Shown: positions 49,220 through 60,008 of the stretch, in pieces
How positions within the stretch are numbered: the first letter of the stretch is position 1
How the letters are laid out: the number at the start of each line of letters is the position of its first letter
Made by a program: the position numbers and the translations under genes
The notes under the pieces: generated by a model
Database searches by the model: none
What the model was told of the DNA's origin: nothing
The model's input: only the letters and a program-made list of their open reading frames with translations
Assembly: GCA_003116975.1 (NCBI GenBank)
Contig: BGKB01000167.1
Span: 1-64,000 of the forward strand
Direction: 5' to 3'
DNA: 64,000 nucleotides
Source: Aurantiochytrium sp. KH105
Lineage: Eukaryota > Sar > Bigyra > Thraustochytrida > Thraustochytriidae

Positions 49220-51247
49220 TTAGTGCAAGCGTACAGCCGATGCGTGCTCCTCCGCCGGCGAAGCGCGCTCAAGATCCTTGATGTTGTACGGCTCCGACGG
49301 GGTCGACTGCGTCTCAATGTTGACAAGAGAGCGCGACTTGCAGTACCAAGCGCCGCCGAGAGCAATCGTGGTGCAGAAAAAGATGACGGCAAGGACCGTC
49401 GTGGCAATCTCCCATCCAGACGCCTTGTTCGCAACAGAGGCAGACACGACAGTAAAATCGACAACCGCGTACTTAACCGCGCCGTCGCTGAAGATAGGCA
49501 CACTGGCGCTGACATCAATGGGCTCAAAGTCCGAGTAAAGGTCGATAAGGTACGTGGGCGCGTTGCTGTTGGTCGTGGTGCTGCTCGACGAGTCGGTGCT
49601 CAGCTCAAATTCATCCGAGTTCTGCGGCCACACCTTGTAGCCGAGGTCACGAAGAGACGACACGGTGAGGGTAGAGAGCGGCTGGTCGTGCCCATACTGA
49701 GTTCCGGTCATCAGCTCATCCTCGAAAACGGACTGAGACCAGTGGTAGATGGAGCTGCTGTTCACATCAAGCGGCACACTCTCGCCGGCATTTCCTCCGA
49801 CGAGCTGGTAGCCCCAGATACCCTTGGAGCCGGTGTATGTCTTCGAGTCGGCGTCAACAAGACCAAACGCGTCCCAGAGCGAGCCAACGCCCAGCACATG
49901 GCCAATCTCGTGCTCGATAATCTCCTCAAAGTGGTAGTGGTCGAGCATCTTGACGGTCCTGCTGCTGTCCGAGTTGACAGTGATCACGCCAACGCGCGTA
50001 AAGTAGGTGTCATCCGATTGAGCAAAGATGCACGGCTTGGCAGTGATGAAAGACGCATCTTCGCCGTTGGCGATGACCTGCACAAGAATGAGAAGGTTGT
50101 CGACACTGTCTCCGGAGGCAAAGGTGTAGTCGATGCCGCAGTAGTCGGAGAGACTCGTCTCCTCCTCAAAGGTGATGGCGTCGTGCTCGGTGCGGATAAC
50201 GTTGCTCCAGTTGGTGGCGGCGTTGGTAATGGCTGTCTCGATGCGATCCTCATAGTCCGAAAGCGTGTTGGATACGAGTTCCACCTTGACAAATTCCGAG
50301 GCCGCCGTCGTGGAGGTCGAGGACGAGCTGGAAGAGACCTCGAAATCAATTACAGCGTAAGAGACGGCACCATTGTTGAAGACGGGCACACTGGCGCTGA
50401 CGTCGACCGACTCAAAGTCCATGTACAGATCGATAAGGTACTTGGGCGCGTTGCTGTTGTTGCTGCTGCTGCTCGACGAGTCGGTGCTCAGCTCAAATTC
50501 ATCCGAGTTCTGCGGCCACACCTTGTAGCCGAGGTCACGAAGAGACGACACGGTGAGGGTAGAGAGCGGCTGGTCGTGTCCATACTGGGTTCCGGTCATC
50601 AGCTCATCCTCGAAAACGGACTGAGACCAGTGGTAGATGGAGCTGCTGTTCACATCAAGCGGCACGCCTTCGTCAGAGCCTCCGACGAGCTGATAGCCCC
50701 AGATACCCTTGGAGCCGGTGTATGTCTTCGAGTCGGCGTCAACAAGACCAAACGCGTCCCAGAGCGAGCCAACGCCCAGCACATGGCCAATCTCGTGCTC
50801 GATAATCTCCTCAAAGTGGTAGTGGTCGAGCATCTTGACGGTCCTGCTGCTGTCCGAGTTGACAGTGATCACGCCAACGCGCGTAAAGTAGGTGTCATCC
50901 GATTGAGCAAAGATGCACGGCTTGGCAGTGATGAAAGACGCATCTTCGCCGTTGGCGATGACCTGCACAAGAATGAGAAGGTTGTCGACACTGTCTCCGG
51001 AGGCAAAGGTGTAGTCGATGCCGCAGTAGTCGGAGAGACTCGTCTCCTCCTCAAAGGTGATGGCGTCGTGCTCGGTGCGGATAACGTTGCTCCAGTTGGT
51101 GGCGGCGTTGGTAATGGCTGTCTCGATGCGATCCTCATAGTCCGAAAGCGTGTTGGACACGAGCTCAATCTCGATAAAGTCCGCGGTAGCCTGCGACACG
51201 AGCAGAGCCAGAGCTGCCACCATGGCGGGCATCATTCGGGGCGCCAT
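49220..51247 (-). CDS. Duplicated M8 (leishmanolysin-like) surface metalloprotease
   Basis: This is a 675-residue protein from the ATG at 51247. A signal peptide (1-22) is followed by two catalytic units of about 295 residues (about 23-315 and 318-610), then a TM (about 612-634) and a short cytosolic tail: a type I surface protein. Each unit has HEIGHVLGVGSLW (His151/Glu152/His155 and His446/Glu447/His450), a third His ligand in YHWSQSVFEDELMTG, and LSTLTVSSLRDLGYKVWP. This is the DELM...S.LT...L.DLGY signature of the M8 family. Both units keep every catalytic residue. The two units are nearly identical over the catalytic core and differ mainly in a short loop (GGSDEGVP versus GGNAGESVP) and in the Ser/Thr linkers. 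Substrates are unknown; M8 enzymes degrade extracellular proteins. Confidence 0.85.
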   Translation of the reverse strand: MAPRMMPAMVAALALLVSQATADFIEIELVSNTLSDYEDRIETAITNAATNWSNVIRTEHDAITFEEETSLSDYCGIDYTFASGDSVDNLLILVQVIANGEDASFITAKPCIFAQSDDTYFTRVGVITVNSDSSRTVKMLDHYHFEEIIEHEIGHVLGVGSLWDAFGLVDADSKTYTGSKGIWGYQLVGGSDEGVPLDVNSSSIYHWSQSVFEDELMTGTQYGHDQPLSTLTVSSLRDLGYKVWPQNSDEFELSTDSSSSSSNNSNAPKYLIDLYMDFESVDVSASVPVFNNGAVSYAVIDFEVSSSSSSTSTTAASEFVKVELVSNTLSDYEDRIETAITNAATNWSNVIRTEHDAITFEEETSLSDYCGIDYTFASGDSVDNLLILVQVIANGEDASFITAKPCIFAQSDDTYFTRVGVITVNSDSSRTVKMLDHYHFEEIIEHEIGHVLGVGSLWDAFGLVDADSKTYTGSKGIWGYQLVGGNAGESVPLDVNSSSIYHWSQSVFEDELMTGTQYGHDQPLSTLTVSSLRDLGYKVWPQNSDEFELSTDSSSSTTTNSNAPTYLIDLYSDFEPIDVSASVPIFSDGAVKYAVVDFTVVSASVANKASGWEIATTVLAVIFFCTTIALGGAWYCKSRSLVNIETQSTPSEPYNIKDLERASPAEEHASAVRLH
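49480..51170. repeat. 885-bp tandem duplication inside the M8 protease gene
   Basis: The two halves align with an offset of 888 bases in the lower part and 885 in the upper part; a 3-base indel in the GGSDEG/GGNAGE loop explains the change. Long blocks, such as 49811-50275 against 50696-51160, appear identical or almost so by eye. The linkers at each unit's C-terminal side differ more. Confidence 0.9.
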
Positions 51248-53609
51248 CTTGTCTTCTCTCCTTTGCTTGGCTTCTTTCTTTCCCTTGGTCTTTGGTTTGG
51301 GTTTGGGTTTTGCTTTTGGTCTTGGTTTTGGTTTTGCCTTTCACGTTTGCTCCACGCGACCAAGGCACTCATGTCTGTGCAAGCTTCAATAGATACATCA
51401 AAGCAGGCGCACGCACCTTGCAGCTGCGTCCTTGCGCGCCGAGTCCGCGAAGATATACCAGAGCTCGTCATGACGCCTTCCCCTCGTGACGCTCTCTCAC
51501 TCTTCCTAACTCGCAGTCAGTTCCAAATGCGGCGATTCGGCGCTCGAACGGGAAGAACGCTCGATCGCACCGACACTGCCTGTCCCCAGTGCAGCATTAT
51601 GTCGTCCATGTAGTGTGGTATTATCTGAGCAGCGACAGGTGCAGCGTGATGCAGCGTAGAGCAGCGCAGCACGGGGAAGCCACGCGCCACGCGTTCGTCT
51701 CGTCGCCCGAGGAAGCAAGTGTGCGGGCCTCGGCCGGGCCCTGGATCCACCGTTAGACAAGTACAGGCCCGCGAGGGACTCTCTCTGGCCCATTTTGCGG
51801 CTCGTATCGGCGCCAGACGGCTTCACGCCGTTGCTACGCCGTCGTCGTCGTCGTCTGCTTCGTCATTTTGCCTCCGTTGATTGATCGCTTCGCAACGTCT
51901 GCATGCTCTGGCTCAGCGCGCCGAGGCGGTAATGGGTGGCCAGGCCACCTTTGCCACGCAGAAATGGTGACCCTCGCCGCGCTCGGGGGACGGAGCGCTT
52001 CCCGAGCACGCAGGCCGGAGCACTGCGGGTCCTCCGCGACCGTGCCGGGCGCGCGACTGTGGGTATGGGCGGGACCAAGCGCACGTGGCCGCACGTGGGA
52101 GCGCGTGCACCAACAACTGCCACTGCAGGCTGCAGCTGCATTTGCGAGCGGCGCGCCTGCGGTTCGGAGGCGCAGGTGTGAGGCAAGGCGCGAGCCGGAT
52201 ATCGAATGCGGCTGTGGGCGTTGCGCGGGCGGCTCTGAGGCATGTGTTGGTGCCGCGGGATGTTTTTCCCACGGGATGTGGCGAAGCATGGCGCACGTGA
52301 GAGGGTCGGCCAGAGGCCGGGCATTTTTGCGGCTGCTCGCTCGCTCGCTCGTCGAGGCTGGTTCGCGGCTTGGAGGCGCAAGTCCAGGTGATGGATGCGC
52401 ATGCGTGCAGACAGGGCCATGACACCGACAGAGATTGTCCAGCGCAGCTTTTCGAGAACGCGCGCTTTGCGAGGGGGAAGGACGGCATCGAGGTGCGTTC
52501 AGATGAGCGAGTGCATGTGAGTAAAGACCTGCAGCATGCCGTCGCATCGATGCAGTCTCGAAGACGGTTGCGTGACAGGCGTCTAAGCGACGTGAAAAAG
52601 AAAAAAAGATGTTGCGCATTTCTTGTACGTGCGCCTGCTTGAGCAGTTGGCTGTTTGACTCGTCATCCGAGTCGCGAGAAACATTCTGTTCTATCGGGCC
52701 CGAATCACTCAGCACTTGCTGCTAATAGCGGTGCCACGGGGCAATCTTAGATTGATGTGGGGCCTGTGGCGCTCGGTGAGGCACAATGTATTGGCGTCAT
52801 CATGCCATGGCCTCGTAAAGATGAAGATTTATCGAGCTCTCATCGCGCCAAAGTCATGGCCACAGAGAGACGTTGACAAGCCAAGGTCGGGGTGCGATGA
52901 TGCTGAAGTCGAGAATCAACAGCTGACCTCCACTCGACTCGAATCGGCACGAATTGAGTTGCTTCTGTACTGCTCGGCTGTACAGGACTGACATTGCAGA
53001 ACTTGATTTTCTTTGATCTATGCGTAGTTTGGCTGGATGGGGCCAACTGCGGTCATCAAGCAAGTTGAAAAGGTACCTCGCTTGATTAATTTTCGATTCA
53101 AATTCCGGAGGGCGTTAATATTAACCGCGGGCAAAGCAAAGTGGTAGGCCTATTCAAAGATCGGCAGTTGCATCTTGGAGACGCACTCACAGTCAGCACG
53201 CGCGCGAGAGAGAGTGTGTGTGGGAAAGCGAGTGAGATGGGGAGAGAGCCACAAGTCTTCTAGGAATAAAAGAAGTCTGCTAACGAAATCAGCAAGTAAA
53301 TCGAAAGCTGCTTTGAAATGGAAAGCGAAAGAACGAAGACTGGTCTGAATACCGACGGGAAGATTTTTGCCTTGAAATTTCTTGGCAGTTCAATCTTCAG
53401 CAACGCCGCACCCTAGTTCCCGTCATTGATCGGCAAAGGAGAGCTTTTCCTTCCAAAAAAAAATAACTAACATGAAATAATCATAAATTGACCGCGCAAC
53501 TTCATGATCGCCAAATATTTTTTAAAGTCCATCTTTCCAAGTCTGATCAGAGTCTGCAAATTATCTCATACTCAGTCAAGGATATAGGTCCAGGCCTAGA
53601 TGATCATCA
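51248..53609. other. 2.4-kb region upstream of the M8 protease gene
   Basis: It holds the presumed M8 promoter next to 51248 and the 3' flank of the helical-repeat gene near 53609. A GTTTGGGTTTTGG-type low-complexity stretch lies at about 51288-51335. A pair of phase-matched candidate exons on the minus strand (52721-52629 and 52582-52499) is described in the findings, but no start exon was found. Long minus-strand frames over 51834-52715 are otherwise composition artefacts. No RNA gene is recognised. Confidence 0.5.
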
Positions 53610-56600
53610 TCACGACTGTCGAGAGGATGATGATGAGGAATCAGCTGAGGCTAACTGCTCCGCCCAGTTCATGAGTCTAGCAAGATGGTCCGTATCTGGG
53701 CAGGTCGGGTCCGCGGTGCGCTTCGCGACCTCGTCGCGCAGGTTTAGCCCGTTCCGGTCAAAGAGAACATACCTCAACTCGGGAAGACCACCAACGCAGC
53801 GCCCTAGTTCCTCGGTAAGTGAAATCGCGACACGGCGCACCTCCGAGTCGCGGTCATCCCAGAACGCAAGAAGTAGCTTGAAGGCGTTTCGAATAAGCTT
53901 CCTGGCGACCGCCGTACTGCAGCGCGGGAGAAGTCGCACAAAGGTCTCCAAAAGCTCCACTTTTGCTCGATGCAGATTATCCTCGACGTTCGAGTCAGGT
54001 ATTGATTGCTGCAGAGCCTCGTGCACACCTGCAACGTTCTCGTCAAGGAACGTCTGGAATTCACTCTTGCGGCGCGAGCTACTGGACAACCCAACAATGG
54101 CGTGACTCGTGATCGAGCGCAGCTCTCGATGTTCGCTTTTACTGAGCTGGTGAAGAAGCCAACGGAGGCCTTCCGCAACATCATCGTCGCTCAAGGTATT
54201 TGCGCGATTGTACACCACACCCAAACCATCGAGAAGAATACCTTGCAGCTTAGCCATGACCCACAAATGGGAGCTTAAGCGCTTGAGCTGTCGCTGCAGA
54301 GCCTCTCGCCTCGAAGTTATAATCTTGTGCTGCTTCTCTGTTCCAAGCTGCGCCAAGAGATTGGCGCGCTGCTTCTCGAGGGAATCAAACTCTGATTCGC
54401 TAACAACGGGCAAATGAAGCTTTTCGGATCCCAGTAAGCTTCCGAGATTCATTTTGGCGGATGCCAGCAAACGCGAGTCTCGAGCAATTTCTTCGCATTG
54501 AGCGAAAAGATCATGCATGAGCGGGAGGACGTCTGTCCAATTTGCCGGTAGTGTGTCGCACGCAAATAAGATATTGGCGTTTACTGTGAAGCTGTGCAGC
54601 AGCTGCTCCATCTCAAGCTCTCCGTACCCGAGATACTCGCTTATGAGGTCATCTGAAGAAATGCCGGCAAGATGTTCTTTGCACCGCTCAACGAGCCGCT
54701 CTCCTGTCTTGATGTCACTTCGGATAGCGTTGAAAAGTCGCTCACCCACCTCGGCGTGCCTTGAGGCAAGAATCTGCGCAATCAGTCCGAGCTCGCACGA
54801 AAGTAAGCCTCGAAAAGCTGATTCCTGCAAACCAAAAGCGTTGGATGCCCCCTCAGCGCGTAACGATGCCTTGCTCTCATCAGGGGACGTTGGGATCTCG
54901 AGCGAGCTTTTAGAAGCAATAGCTGGCGCCGTGAGACCGTACTGCGCCAGGTAGTGTAGATACGTTGGGTCGGCCTGCAAGAAATTGAGGTTTAGAGGGT
55001 CGTCGTCTTCAAGTGCGCCCGAAAGCTTGCCACCTCGGGGCGATTCTGCAAGCGATTCTGAAGCGTTTGCATGACTTGGCTGTTGATCGTCGGGACTGCC
55101 AGTCATCGTACGTATTTCGGATCGTAGAGGATCCTCATCAGCGTGCCGTCTGCGCAGGGCAGCTGCCTTGTCAAGTTCGAGATCGTTTGCAAGCTGTCGG
55201 ACCTCCTGCACAAAGGTCTCATCACGAAGCATGAATTCGGGAGGCTCGCATAGAATGCTTTGGACAGCAAGGCGACGAATCTTATCGCTCGGGTCGCACA
55301 ACGCGCGAATTAGATTAGGGAGAACCATTGTTGGCCCCATGCGTTTTCCCGCGATACTCAGCAGAGTAAAGGAGCGCTGGCGCTTGTTTACCTCGCACGA
55401 AACAAGGCCGCTCTCAACATGCTCCACAAGCGAAGTGACCAGCGGATGGTCGTTGGCAAAGGTTGCAAAAACACGCGAGAGCTGCTCTTGAGAGACTTGG
55501 TGGATTCCTGCGTCCGAGTTGCTTTCAAGCATGTCGAGAATACTACGAACTGTCATGGAAAGCTCTTGCTCGCTTGCCAGGAGAGCCGTTTGCGCCACAA
55601 GCTCTAGCGCTGCGCGACGCTCCTCGATCGGACTGCTGCTCGACTGAATGTTCCGCAAGAGAAGACCGGTTAAAGCTTTGGCGTCGGCACTAGGAATGAG
55701 TTCTGCGAGTTCCGGTTTAGCTTGCTGTTTGCTGTTGGCCACTTCTGACCCTGTTTCATTTCTTTCCCCAAGACTTGTCTCAAAGATGCGAAAGATCTGT
55801 TGCAAAAGTGTGAGATGACCAAGGCCAAGCTCATGCAGCTGGCAAAGATTCCCAACCACAAAAGGTAGAACCTTGGCAGGAGCGTGCGTTCCAATGAGTC
55901 GTAGCGCCATTGCGCTGGCTTTTCGTTGCGGTCGATCAATGTGCACATCTAGCTCTTGACTGGCGCTCGAGTCGAGCAAAAGCGCTGCCAGCATGCCTCG
56001 CAAGCGGTTTGACTTGATTTGGGGCTCACCAGCATATTCGGCCTCCTCCAGATCGAAAACGCGTATACCGAGCTCTCCGAGAAGAAGAATAGCGCAAAGA
56101 CTTGAGTGGGTATCTTGCACAAACTGGAAAAAGTGGTACTGCACAAGGTCAACCTGCGCTGGGATAAGATCCCCACAAAATTGACGCAAAAGTAACTGAA
56201 GCGTGCATAGAAGGCCTTCCGATAAGCCGTCGTGACTTTTCACAGCAGCCTCCGTCACGGCCCCGCTCGCATGGGGGAAACCGTCTTCTTCTCTGGCTGT
56301 CGACACCGCGCCGACTGGACCAGAAGCCACTGGTTCCGGGGGTGCGATGTCATCGTCGTCGTCGTCGTCGTCTCGTCGTCCGACGAAAACTGGAAAAAAG
56401 GGCGTCGAGCACTTCCACAATACAGTCTCCATCAGATCTCTTTCCGACAGACTTGCAAAGAGAACATCGTCGTCCCCGACAAAGTCATCCTCCTCGGGTC
56501 CCCAACTTGAGCGTCTCTCCTCGAGGCTTGATTCTTGCTGTGAGAAGAAAGATGGTCCAAGATCCATGAACAGCGGCATCACAACCCAACGAAGCGCAAC

Positions 56601-59600
56601 GCTTTGTTTCGAGCTGAGCAGCTCACTAAGACGAAGGATTGAATGTGCAGCCTCAATTCTAAAATCTCTCAGAGGATGGTGGATCACGTTCAATAAAATG
56701 TCAATGGCCTGAGCAGCCACAGAAACAGAGCGCAGACTGCCCAACGCTCGTAAGGACGCCTTGGTCAGAGTCTGAGCTTGCCGTTTGCCCACTTGCAAAC
56801 TCGGGGTCTCCTCAACGCCATTGCTTAGCGCCGCAGTCACATCAGCGAGATCATTTTCCTCTTTGGTCTCATTCGCTTCGGATGCTTCAAATTGAGAAAG
56901 ATCCGAACGTAAGAACTCAAAGGCAACTTGGGCGTCGTCTCGAGTTTGGCTTGTAAGCTCAAAGACAAGCGGATATGCCCCAAGTGCAACGTTGACGAGA
57001 TCTTGGCGTGACGACGAAATCATGGCGTGCAGCGTATCACGAAGAACAAAGGCAACAGGTGTTGCTTCGAGAGGCCGAGCTTTTAATAAGACGGTGACGA
57101 GACCAATACAAGCCACGCGGACTTCGGTTTCCGTGGTTTCTCGACTTGCAAGGTCAGTTGCACCTGCGAGGAAAAAACGAACCAGCACACTCGCGAGACC
57201 TTCCACTCGCAGTGGGACGAGCCGCGTGAGAACTTGCAATAACGATGAAAGGAGCGCTGCGTTACGGCGGCCGCCGACTTCTCCTCCTGCTTCGTTGACC
57301 AGAGAAGCCCGTGCTCCACCACTGCCTCTTGCACCATGTGCGCGCATCGCGCGGAATGCATCTATCACCAGACGCTGGAGCATCGTGGCTGGGACGCCAC
57401 GATTCTTTTCATGCAGGCACTTGGCATATGTCTCGACAGCCAGGAGACGCTCGTGCTCCACTCTCGTTTGCATGCAGTGTATAAAAAGTGCACTGGCCCG
57501 AGCTTCGTCCTCGGCAGATCCAAGCTGGGCAAACATGAATGCAGCATAAAGTGACCAGTGGCCTGGCTGCATCTCCGTCTGGAAGGCCGAAACGCTCGCA
57601 TTTGCCCTAAAGAAGCTGTGCGAGAGAAAAATTCGACGTGTGCTTGCGTGCTGTGGAAGCTGAAGAGTGCGAACTAGAAGCGCATAGGGCCCAAGTCGAT
57701 ACTGCAACAGAGATCGACGGAGAGCGATTCTCAAGACCGCCGCAAAGTCGCGAATATCTCTTTGATGCGGCTCATCTTCAATCTCGATGAGCTCTTCCAA
57801 AGAGGTAGCCAGCGTCTGCGCGGCCACGGCGGATTGATCACCAGCGCACGTTAGCAATGTTGCGAGCGCATACTCTCGAAGAGATGGCGTTGTCCAGAAT
57901 CGCTTACATTCGCCAAACAGCGCATAAATGGCGAGACGCGTGCGCTGTGGACATTCAAAGGCCTTGGTGGCCAAGACGCGGCAAAGCGAACGAAGTCGTC
58001 GCTCATCAAAATACTCATAGGGCAGAGCGGCCACCGTCTGAAGAATACGCTTCAGCAGACGTTCCTGCTGCGACGTTGCCAGGACCTGCCGGAAGACTGT
58101 ATCGATGGCGCACAATGAGCGGAAATACACGTTCTCCGCGAGCGGCTGGGCTGGATCCCTCGACTGGAGAGATGCGCTTAGCGTAGGGGCCATGGCCTCA
58201 AATATTTTCACTGCAAGCGTGCCCGTGCGTGAGTCCGCGCCACGAATGCCCATGAGAAGGTTGTTTGCTACAAACGGAATCGTGTGATGCAGCTTGCGCG
58301 CCCAGAGCAGAAGAACTTCCATGCGATGCAATCGCTCTACTCTTGGAAGGTAGTGCAACCCGGCAGAGAGCTGAGCAAAGGGCCTTTCCAAAAAACCTGC
58401 ACAGAGGGGAATGCCTCGCGATAGCACGGCACGAAGCTGTGCACGCTCCTCCTCAACACTGAAGGCTTTGCCTACTCGTGCGTACACGGCAGTCTCCCAG
58501 GAACAGAGATCGGCGTGAAAGCGTCTTCGAATGCGCAACTCGCGAGCATCGTCACCAGAGAGACCGAGTTGACCATTTTTCCTCCGTGAGCCTTGCGAAG
58601 CCGACGTCAAATCGACTGCTAGCTTCAGGCACTCGATGCTCAATGTTTGACACGGCTTGACATCGAGACTGGCACTGAGCAATAGGGGAAAGAGCATCGT
58701 ATCCTGTGCACGAATGAGGTCCGCCGGGAATGCCGAGAGCACAGCGTGTATGCAAAGAGTAGCTCCGTAGCGAACAGCTGGCTGTGGCGCGAGTAAAAAG
58801 TTTTCCATGTCGGCAAGAAAACCAGCAACGAGTTCTTTGGATCGGATCGTTTGCTCAAAGGCCTTCAAACAAAGCTCACAATGCATTGCAAAGTCACCTT
58901 GGGTTACGGCTGGAAGGGCATTTGAGACCACGGCCACAAGCGCCTTGAAGATATCCGTCTCTCTTTCTACTTTAACGAGCTCGACGGCCAAATGGTGCAC
59001 ACAGCCGCGTGCCGCGAGTTTTTCCTCGGGTAAAAGCTGTGTTTTGCTCACAATGCTACGAAGCACCCGAAAGAGTGTGTTGGGTGTCGGTGTTGATTTC
59101 CCGTACTTGATAATCTCAATCATGCTAACAAGGACGACCGACTTTTCCAGACTTTCCACTTGACTGCTACGTAGACGAGCAGCACTGTCGGTGCCGACGG
59201 CACCTTGCATGAAATTGGCTCCATTTTTCGAAGCTGCGTCCCCGTAAACCATGTGAAGTCGTGCAAGCGCCCCTGTCGCGTCAGTCTTGACCATGGTAGT
59301 TTCTGCGGAGGCGCAAGTGAAGAAAGAGCACATGATCGAAACGCTGAGCATTCGCATGTCCTCGCTTGGATGGATCAGCAGGGCCTCCAAAGGTGGCACG
59401 GCAAGGGTGCTGAGCTGAGCAAAGCAAGGGGAGAGGATGTCGAAGGCCGTCTTCACACCAGCAAAGATCGTGGAGCCCATGTCCAGCGCTTGGGACGCAC
59501 GGGAAAAGTGTCTCTCGTCAATCGTCTGATCAGAGAGCGCCTGCGCGAGACTAAAGAGAAGTTGCAGGGCTTCGCGGCGACGCGATTGTACTGCGTGAAG

Positions 59601-60008
59601 TAAAAGGCTCGCGAGACACAGAAAGGCGTCAACGGCAAGACTTTCCAAGATCTCGTCCATCTCTCCAGCCTGGCTCTCTCTGCGCACAAGAGTTTCGCCT
59701 TCTTCTGCGCGCATCTTTTCGTCCGATGTACCACTTAAGCCAGAAATGCCATCGCCGGAGCCATTTGCGAAAGAGACATCTTCTGCATCTTGGCTGCCTT
59801 CGTGCACGGTGCGAAGTATGTCATCGAGACGAAGGAGGCTTGCTTCTGCGACGTTTCCTTCGGCTGCCTCGTGGTTCATTTCTCGACGTTGACTTATCGC
59901 GGCACTTCGCCGTCGCGCTTGCTCAAAGAGCGTGGGGTTGTCATTTTTTAGCTTGACAATCACCCTCGCGCCTGCAAACCATTGACGGAGCTTCTCTTGC
60001 GCAGCCAT
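53610..60008 (-). CDS. Very large helical-repeat (HEAT/ARM-like) protein
   Basis: This is a 2132-residue single-exon protein from the ATG at 60008. Nearly the whole length is paired amphipathic helices with the Leu/Ala and Asp/Arg spacing of HEAT repeats. Clear examples are AVRYGATLCIHAVLSAFP, RDFRIEAAHSILRLSELL and MVLPNLIRALCDPSDKIRRL (Pro at position 4, Asp and Arg ending the repeat). Insertions are an acidic low-complexity stretch with eight Asp (near residue 1212), a Ser/Glu-rich linker (about 1640-1690) and a short Ser-rich tail. Size and repeat type suggest a scaffold similar to MROH1/SGR6-class or other giant HEAT proteins, but the family is not proven. No signal peptide or TM is visible; it is presumably cytosolic. 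It diverges from the GT61-like gene with 496 bases between starts. Confidence 0.65.
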   Translation of the reverse strand: MAAQEKLRQWFAGARVIVKLKNDNPTLFEQARRRSAAISQRREMNHEAAEGNVAEASLLRLDDILRTVHEGSQDAEDVSFANGSGDGISGLSGTSDEKMRAEEGETLVRRESQAGEMDEILESLAVDAFLCLASLLLHAVQSRRREALQLLFSLAQALSDQTIDERHFSRASQALDMGSTIFAGVKTAFDILSPCFAQLSTLAVPPLEALLIHPSEDMRMLSVSIMCSFFTCASAETTMVKTDATGALARLHMVYGDAASKNGANFMQGAVGTDSAARLRSSQVESLEKSVVLVSMIEIIKYGKSTPTPNTLFRVLRSIVSKTQLLPEEKLAARGCVHHLAVELVKVERETDIFKALVAVVSNALPAVTQGDFAMHCELCLKAFEQTIRSKELVAGFLADMENFLLAPQPAVRYGATLCIHAVLSAFPADLIRAQDTMLFPLLLSASLDVKPCQTLSIECLKLAVDLTSASQGSRRKNGQLGLSGDDARELRIRRRFHADLCSWETAVYARVGKAFSVEEERAQLRAVLSRGIPLCAGFLERPFAQLSAGLHYLPRVERLHRMEVLLLWARKLHHTIPFVANNLLMGIRGADSRTGTLAVKIFEAMAPTLSASLQSRDPAQPLAENVYFRSLCAIDTVFRQVLATSQQERLLKRILQTVAALPYEYFDERRLRSLCRVLATKAFECPQRTRLAIYALFGECKRFWTTPSLREYALATLLTCAGDQSAVAAQTLATSLEELIEIEDEPHQRDIRDFAAVLRIALRRSLLQYRLGPYALLVRTLQLPQHASTRRIFLSHSFFRANASVSAFQTEMQPGHWSLYAAFMFAQLGSAEDEARASALFIHCMQTRVEHERLLAVETYAKCLHEKNRGVPATMLQRLVIDAFRAMRAHGARGSGGARASLVNEAGGEVGGRRNAALLSSLLQVLTRLVPLRVEGLASVLVRFFLAGATDLASRETTETEVRVACIGLVTVLLKARPLEATPVAFVLRDTLHAMISSSRQDLVNVALGAYPLVFELTSQTRDDAQVAFEFLRSDLSQFEASEANETKEENDLADVTAALSNGVEETPSLQVGKRQAQTLTKASLRALGSLRSVSVAAQAIDILLNVIHHPLRDFRIEAAHSILRLSELLSSKQSVALRWVVMPLFMDLGPSFFSQQESSLEERRSSWGPEEDDFVGDDDVLFASLSERDLMETVLWKCSTPFFPVFVGRRDDDDDDDDIAPPEPVASGPVGAVSTAREEDGFPHASGAVTEAAVKSHDGLSEGLLCTLQLLLRQFCGDLIPAQVDLVQYHFFQFVQDTHSSLCAILLLGELGIRVFDLEEAEYAGEPQIKSNRLRGMLAALLLDSSASQELDVHIDRPQRKASAMALRLIGTHAPAKVLPFVVGNLCQLHELGLGHLTLLQQIFRIFETSLGERNETGSEVANSKQQAKPELAELIPSADAKALTGLLLRNIQSSSSPIEERRAALELVAQTALLASEQELSMTVRSILDMLESNSDAGIHQVSQEQLSRVFATFANDHPLVTSLVEHVESGLVSCEVNKRQRSFTLLSIAGKRMGPTMVLPNLIRALCDPSDKIRRLAVQSILCEPPEFMLRDETFVQEVRQLANDLELDKAAALRRRHADEDPLRSEIRTMTGSPDDQQPSHANASESLAESPRGGKLSGALEDDDPLNLNFLQADPTYLHYLAQYGLTAPAIASKSSLEIPTSPDESKASLRAEGASNAFGLQESAFRGLLSCELGLIAQILASRHAEVGERLFNAIRSDIKTGERLVERCKEHLAGISSDDLISEYLGYGELEMEQLLHSFTVNANILFACDTLPANWTDVLPLMHDLFAQCEEIARDSRLLASAKMNLGSLLGSEKLHLPVVSESEFDSLEKQRANLLAQLGTEKQHKIITSRREALQRQLKRLSSHLWVMAKLQGILLDGLGVVYNRANTLSDDDVAEGLRWLLHQLSKSEHRELRSITSHAIVGLSSSSRRKSEFQTFLDENVAGVHEALQQSIPDSNVEDNLHRAKVELLETFVRLLPRCSTAVARKLIRNAFKLLLAFWDDRDSEVRRVAISLTEELGRCVGGLPELRYVLFDRNGLNLRDEVAKRTADPTCPDTDHLARLMNWAEQLASADSSSSSSRQS

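Follow-up and report, generated by a model that had tools for sequence, protein, structure and literature searches.

In leishmanolysin (GP63, family M8, PDB 1LML), a propeptide lies between the signal and the catalytic domain, and the protein carries a glycosylphosphatidylinositol anchor. Angiotensin-converting enzyme, a two-domain protease of family M2, holds its tandem domains on one membrane anchor, and those domains have diverged. M8 copies that are kept alike occur in the tandem arrays of trypanosomatids, where a table in a Trypanosoma brucei array study gives low divergence values for the major surface protease gp63 array (PMC1855330). Red/green opsin-type duplicates, as treated in a review by Fawcett and Innan, are likewise alike by conversion and have a short diverged site (PMC3924837). 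Here we analyze a gene of the thraustochytrid Aurantiochytrium sp. KH105 that places two M8-type catalytic units in one chain; it lies within a 64,000-nucleotide stretch (the window; contig BGKB01000167.1, hereafter C167, positions 1 to 64,000).

The gene shares with GP63 the fold of the catalytic unit, the HExxH motif, the distant third histidine and the Met-turn, but it has two such units, only a signal-like stretch before the first with no room for a propeptide, and a putative transmembrane anchor. As in angiotensin-converting enzyme, two protease domains stand in tandem, but they belong to another family. In contrast to the trypanosomatid arrays and the opsin-type duplicates, which consist of separate genes, the copies here are two enzyme domains of one protein. 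We consider it likely that the product is a membrane protein with two tandem leishmanolysin-fold heads that go back to an old duplication, and that their catalytic domains have been homogenized by recurrent conversion.

Identity and divergence between the two units

A search of the window for direct repeats (seed 20, minimum 60 bases) yields two stretches of this gene and no others. Its units follow each other in frame at a distance of 885–888 bases. A base-by-base alignment divides each unit into segments, with borders that we set after seeing the data. Two blocks are identical in protein and nearly so in DNA, as a preliminary description of the locus had noted: core 1 (159/159 residues identical, 1/477 bases differing) and core 2 (66/66 residues, 2/198 bases). 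That description had treated the core as one identical piece, which holds for both blocks and fails for a short island between them, where 2 of 5 residues are identical and 7 of 15 bases differ, with an additional one-codon gap. The first seven codons also differ (4/7 residues identical, 6/21 bases differing), as does the tail of linker and last strands (unit 1 residues 261–310), already described as diverged, in which 33 of 50 residues are identical and 44 of 150 bases differ. The longest identical run between the units is 464 nt, compared with a median of 61 and a maximum of 195 in 20,000 shufflings of the 60 differences across 861 ungapped columns.

A second copy of the gene, encoding 677 residues, is present in the same assembly on contig C37 (128195-130228), which is colinear with the window across about 20 kb at 94.3–94.6% identity (90.8–98.6% in 500-base bins). 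The assembly comprises 367 contigs that total 76.0 Mb, whereas the assembly of Hondaea fermentalgiana, built from 100-bp reads, has 38.7 Mb, about half as much (PMC5854782). This gene, three other M8-like genes found alongside it and a match to family M6 each occur at two locations on different contigs. Given the assembly size, the paired loci and the colinearity of C37, we infer that the assembly holds both haplotypes and that C167 and C37 represent them. A recent genome duplication may instead account for the pairs, in which case the argument for conversion would hold with "subgenome" replacing "haplotype".

With two haplotypes, four units can be compared over the same 861 columns, which omit gapped positions, including the last part of the linker in unit 1. 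Within the cores, 9 sites group the units by haplotype (concerted sites) and none by unit; outside the cores, 53 sites group them by unit (paralogue-type sites) and none by haplotype. There are no crosswise sites, and 16 further sites are private or mixed and enter neither class. Core 1 contains 6 concerted, 0 paralogue-type and 3 other sites, and core 2 contains 3, 0 and 6. Along the gene, concerted and paralogue-type sites form 5 runs where 16.4 are expected (p = 6.4e-7 by site, 7.2e-6 by codon), and a Fisher test on the segments, with their borders chosen after the fact, gives 4.9e-11. The copies are thus more alike within a genome copy than between genome copies, and they are so in tracts, a concerted pattern that the assembled sequence establishes. 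It bears out the earlier suggestion of continuing conversion of the core, as 9/9 informative core sites join the two units of the same haplotype. As read from these contigs, at least part of the homogenization of the catalytic domains postdates the separation of the haplotypes. The 53 paralogue-type differences common to both haplotypes firmly place the duplication before the haplotypes.

Silent changes counted segment by segment follow the same division. Synonymous divergence (dS) between the units of the window gene is 0.009 in core 1 and 0.047 in core 2, the corresponding C37 values are 0.019 and 0.123, and in the tails it reaches about 1.03 in both; the N-edge and the island also differ at silent sites. 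In the C37 copy the same permutation test finds a longest run of 416 nt against a maximum of 154. Between haplotypes, dS is 0.059–0.178 in the cores and 0.057–0.099 in the tails. Since between haplotypes the cores show about as much silent change as the tails, neither constraint nor double coding explains the identity of the cores within a haplotype. Antisense double coding had been a candidate, as a 796-aa plus-strand frame (49223-51613) spans the gene; it has 4 stops in C37 and seems to be a side effect of codon use.

These observations would fit a history in which an in-frame duplication of a whole unit (catalytic domain, Ser/Asn-rich linker and small C-terminal strand module) long ago created the second head. 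Later gene conversion between the units would then keep the catalytic domains identical, recurring often enough to give both heads of a haplotype the variants peculiar to it; the linkers, strand modules, first seven codons and a loop of 5–6 codons close to the active-site motif would retain the old divergence. The tract borders common to both haplotypes suggest that early conversion set the borders and that later events stayed within them. Core 1 is a strong case for homogenization after the haplotype split. Several points weigh on the other side. Core 2 is the weaker case, as the C37 units differ there at a dS of 0.123, near the 0.15–0.18 found between haplotypes; these units have presumably re-diverged since a last conversion that was older. 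The tail dS is near saturation, with about 34 silent sites behind the value. The comparison draws on only two haplotypes and 9 concerted sites, and sites that share a tract do not count as independent. The closest relative, from H. fermentalgiana, lacks five residues in unit 1 and comes from an assembly of 100-bp reads, and so gives no independent proof. Finally, all of this evidence is drawn from assembled contigs, both of which could share an assembly or polishing error.

Such an artefact, by which software made the two cores alike within each contig, is nevertheless unlikely. The cores are longer than short reads of the kind used for the public H. fermentalgiana assembly, but the unit-specific edges and island recur in both contigs, each with its two units, and the contigs differ from one another at the 9 concerted sites. 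Moreover, private single-unit changes persist inside the cores, and indiscriminate polishing would be expected to draw all four cores together. That conversion, and not another homogenizing process, is responsible is our inference, and unequal crossing over, with the number of units rising and falling, is a much less probable substitute: in-frame tandem units at this spacing are a good substrate, but whole-unit turnover should replace the N-edges, islands and tails, which stay unit-specific in both haplotypes. Least probable is the recent tandem duplication that the preliminary description had offered, with linkers and tails then evolving fast, since the near-identical cores and the capacity of low-complexity linkers for rapid change suit it but silent sites in the tail, N-edge and island have diverged as well (tail dS about 1.03, against 0.009–0.123 in the cores and 0.057–0.099 between haplotype tails) and 53/53 paralogue-type differences are common to both haplotypes.

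The island between the cores

The island is one codon longer in unit 2 (six) than in unit 1 (five), ends 12 residues before the third zinc histidine and, in a structure model of unit 1, falls within the loop between helix 156–164 and strand 172–176. In the assembled sequence it clearly keeps the old divergence between homogenized flanks, in a state identical by unit in both haplotypes.

We give roughly an even chance to a mechanical cause, in which the 3-base gap together with mismatches at 7 of the 15 bases leads the heteroduplex to be rejected or split again, with no selection on the loop. The diverged tails carry most of the protein change, so escape from conversion may track low constraint. 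On the other hand, both flanks have been homogenized and the same island is found in both haplotypes, and the Fawcett and Innan review reads such divergence peaks, opsin exon 5 being an example, as marks of selection against conversion (PMC3924837). The island difference would on that ground be maintained by selection. More tentatively, conversion may equalize both catalytic engines while selection removes conversions that run over the loop, so that the heads share their chemistry and differ in substrate choice. We judge the codon gap and mismatches at least as likely a cause as selection.

Protease family and gene architecture

Both units contain HEIGHVLG, a third histidine in YHW and an ELMTG Met-turn, with HEIGH at residues 151–155 and 446–450, the third histidine at 206 and 502 and the Met-turn methionine at 217 and 513. 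Each thus has the complete M8 zinc site predicted earlier (HExxHxxG, distant third histidine, Met-turn). In a 46-row alignment, the histidine pair and glutamate of HExxH and the third histidine are invariant, and the Met-turn methionine is conserved in at least 90%.

The assignment to M8, also proposed earlier, proves right by fold and relatives, although the Pfam score falls short. Unit 1 alone scores 19.3 bits against the curated PF01457 cut-off of 21, and a Pfam scan of the whole gene does not list PF01457. The paralogues in this genome score 46.1 (401 aa), 15.2 (635 aa) and 17.2 (603 aa), and 45 of the 46 alignment members match PF01457 at E up to 0.001, most having been picked from PF01457-carrying matches. 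We retain the label because the predicted structure of unit 1, compared with 1lml, has the leishmanolysin fold, and because of the zinc site. Matrixin (M10), suggested by a weak Pfam match and by the UniRef name of the H. fermentalgiana protein, was rejected, as 1lml ranks far above matrixins structurally; the M10 profile does not reach its curated cut-off. Residue 24 is the first to align with 1lml (its residue 110), and the 23 residues before it leave no GP63-type propeptide. Judged by the family, both heads would be active proteases that face outward and probably digest extracellular protein.

The intron-free minus-strand frame runs from the signal-like start through both units and a hydrophobic segment to a short tail (Table 1), confirming the tandem M8 duplication in a single frame, with units starting at residues 24 and 319. 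Of the two 295-residue units described earlier, unit 1 has this length and unit 2, cut directly ahead of the hydrophobic anchor, has 288. Residues 311–318, at the joint, have no counterpart in the unit alignment. The proposed single signal peptide and transmembrane segment stand in part: there is one hydrophobic segment, C-terminal to both units, called from 19-residue Kyte-Doolittle windows starting at residues 611–618 that exceed 1.6, and the N-terminus is signal-like by eye and hydropathy, with a similar one in the C37 copy and the H. fermentalgiana protein. All 6 base differences between the N-edges are common to both haplotypes.

Table 1. Coordinates of the gene and its segments in the window
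Feature	Residues	Positions	Strand	Basis or landmarks
Two-headed M8-type membrane protease gene, one open frame	675 aa	49220-51247	-	Second copy on C37 (128195-130228, 677 aa)
Signal-peptide-like N-terminus	1-23	51179-51247	-	Hydropathy 1.61 (window at aa 9) and eye
Unit 1 N-edge, unconverted	24-30	51158-51178	-	
Unit 1 core 1	31-189	50681-51157	-	HEIGH 50783-50797
Unit 1 island (GSDEG), unconverted	190-194	50666-50680	-	
Unit 1 core 2	195-260	50468-50665	-	Third zinc His 50630-50632; Met-turn Met 50597-50599
Unit 1 linker, C-terminal strand module and joint to unit 2, diverged	261-318	50294-50467	-	
Unit 2 N-edge	319-325	50273-50293	-	
Unit 2 core 1	326-484	49796-50272	-	HEIGH 49898-49912
Unit 2 island (GNAGES)	485-490	49778-49795	-	
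Unit 2 core 2	491-556	49580-49777	-	Third zinc His 49742-49744; Met 49709-49711
Unit 2 linker and C-terminal strand module	557-606	49430-49579	-	
Putative transmembrane segment	~611-636	49340-49417	-	Hydropathy 1.66-2.07

An 18–24-base tandem repeat, GGTTTTG-rich on the plus strand (51284-51341), precedes the start codon by about 40 bases. Tandem Repeats Finder (TRF) lists short tandem arrays elsewhere in the window, and a 2132-aa frame at 53610-60008 (minus strand) matches no Pfam family at an E-value of 0.001 or below.

Relatives and significance

The best homologue, H. fermentalgiana FCC1311_074202 (P0001), is 98% identical over the whole query and has two units, with N-edges and island position alike at the protein level. 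It has Phe in both units, as does C37, which fits homogenization. Its unit 1 is five residues shorter and its unit 2 island one residue shorter, reflecting either assembly error or a real allele. By motif count, two units occur in 3 of 248 database proteins, P0001 and two European Nucleotide Archive (ENA) entries, P0223 and P0224. The 248 came from three protein searches with length limits, two of which scored 7,992 and 7,994 candidates; one search supplied its best 120 of 320, and P0001 was not among these, so further two-unit proteins may exist.

P0223 and P0224 likewise combine two M8 units with a hydrophobic stretch C-terminal to them in a single chain, but their units are not homogenized (103/229 aligned residues identical in P0223). 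In a midpoint-rooted tree of 27 chosen rows, the window's two units have the 635-aa single-head paralogue as their sister (100/100), and the 401-aa paralogue branches next (94/88). In P0223 and P0224, unit 1 groups with unit 1 and unit 2 with unit 2, all four together (95/85), and they join a protein recorded as Batrachochytrium salamandrivorans (100/99); this group stands away from the units of the window gene. Relatives whose two units have diverged evenly, which the preliminary description associated with an old duplication, therefore do exist, but the tree favors independent duplication. Judged by these sequences, two-headed M8 proteins probably arose twice, and among those found, homogenization is apparent in this gene and its Hondaea ortholog alone. 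Less probably, the two-headed proteins may share one old duplication, with a unit later lost in the single-head paralogues, since conversion wipes the earlier record from the cores of the window gene. The single-head paralogue is present on two contigs, at L017 1943-3850 (635 aa) and L018 5664-7475 (603 aa), with a long Asp/Gly/Arg/His-rich linker of unequal length.

Among the matches listed for the open-licence literature, searched by titles and abstract openings, we found no description of this gene or of a two-headed M8 protein, and no title there concerned gene conversion in thraustochytrids; the main text of PMC12221091 contains no protease-related term at the start of a word. Concerted evolution has mostly been described between genes or in many-copy repeats, and in this gene it seems to operate between two enzyme domains of one protein, a pattern that comes to light through the presence of both versions of the locus in a single assembly. 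One short loop is singled out as the place where the heads differ, which yields a prediction on a split of specificity between them. If selection does preserve the loop, a new function would be held in 5–6 codons of a single polypeptide under continuing homogenization. More generally, near-identical tandem domains need not mean recent duplication.
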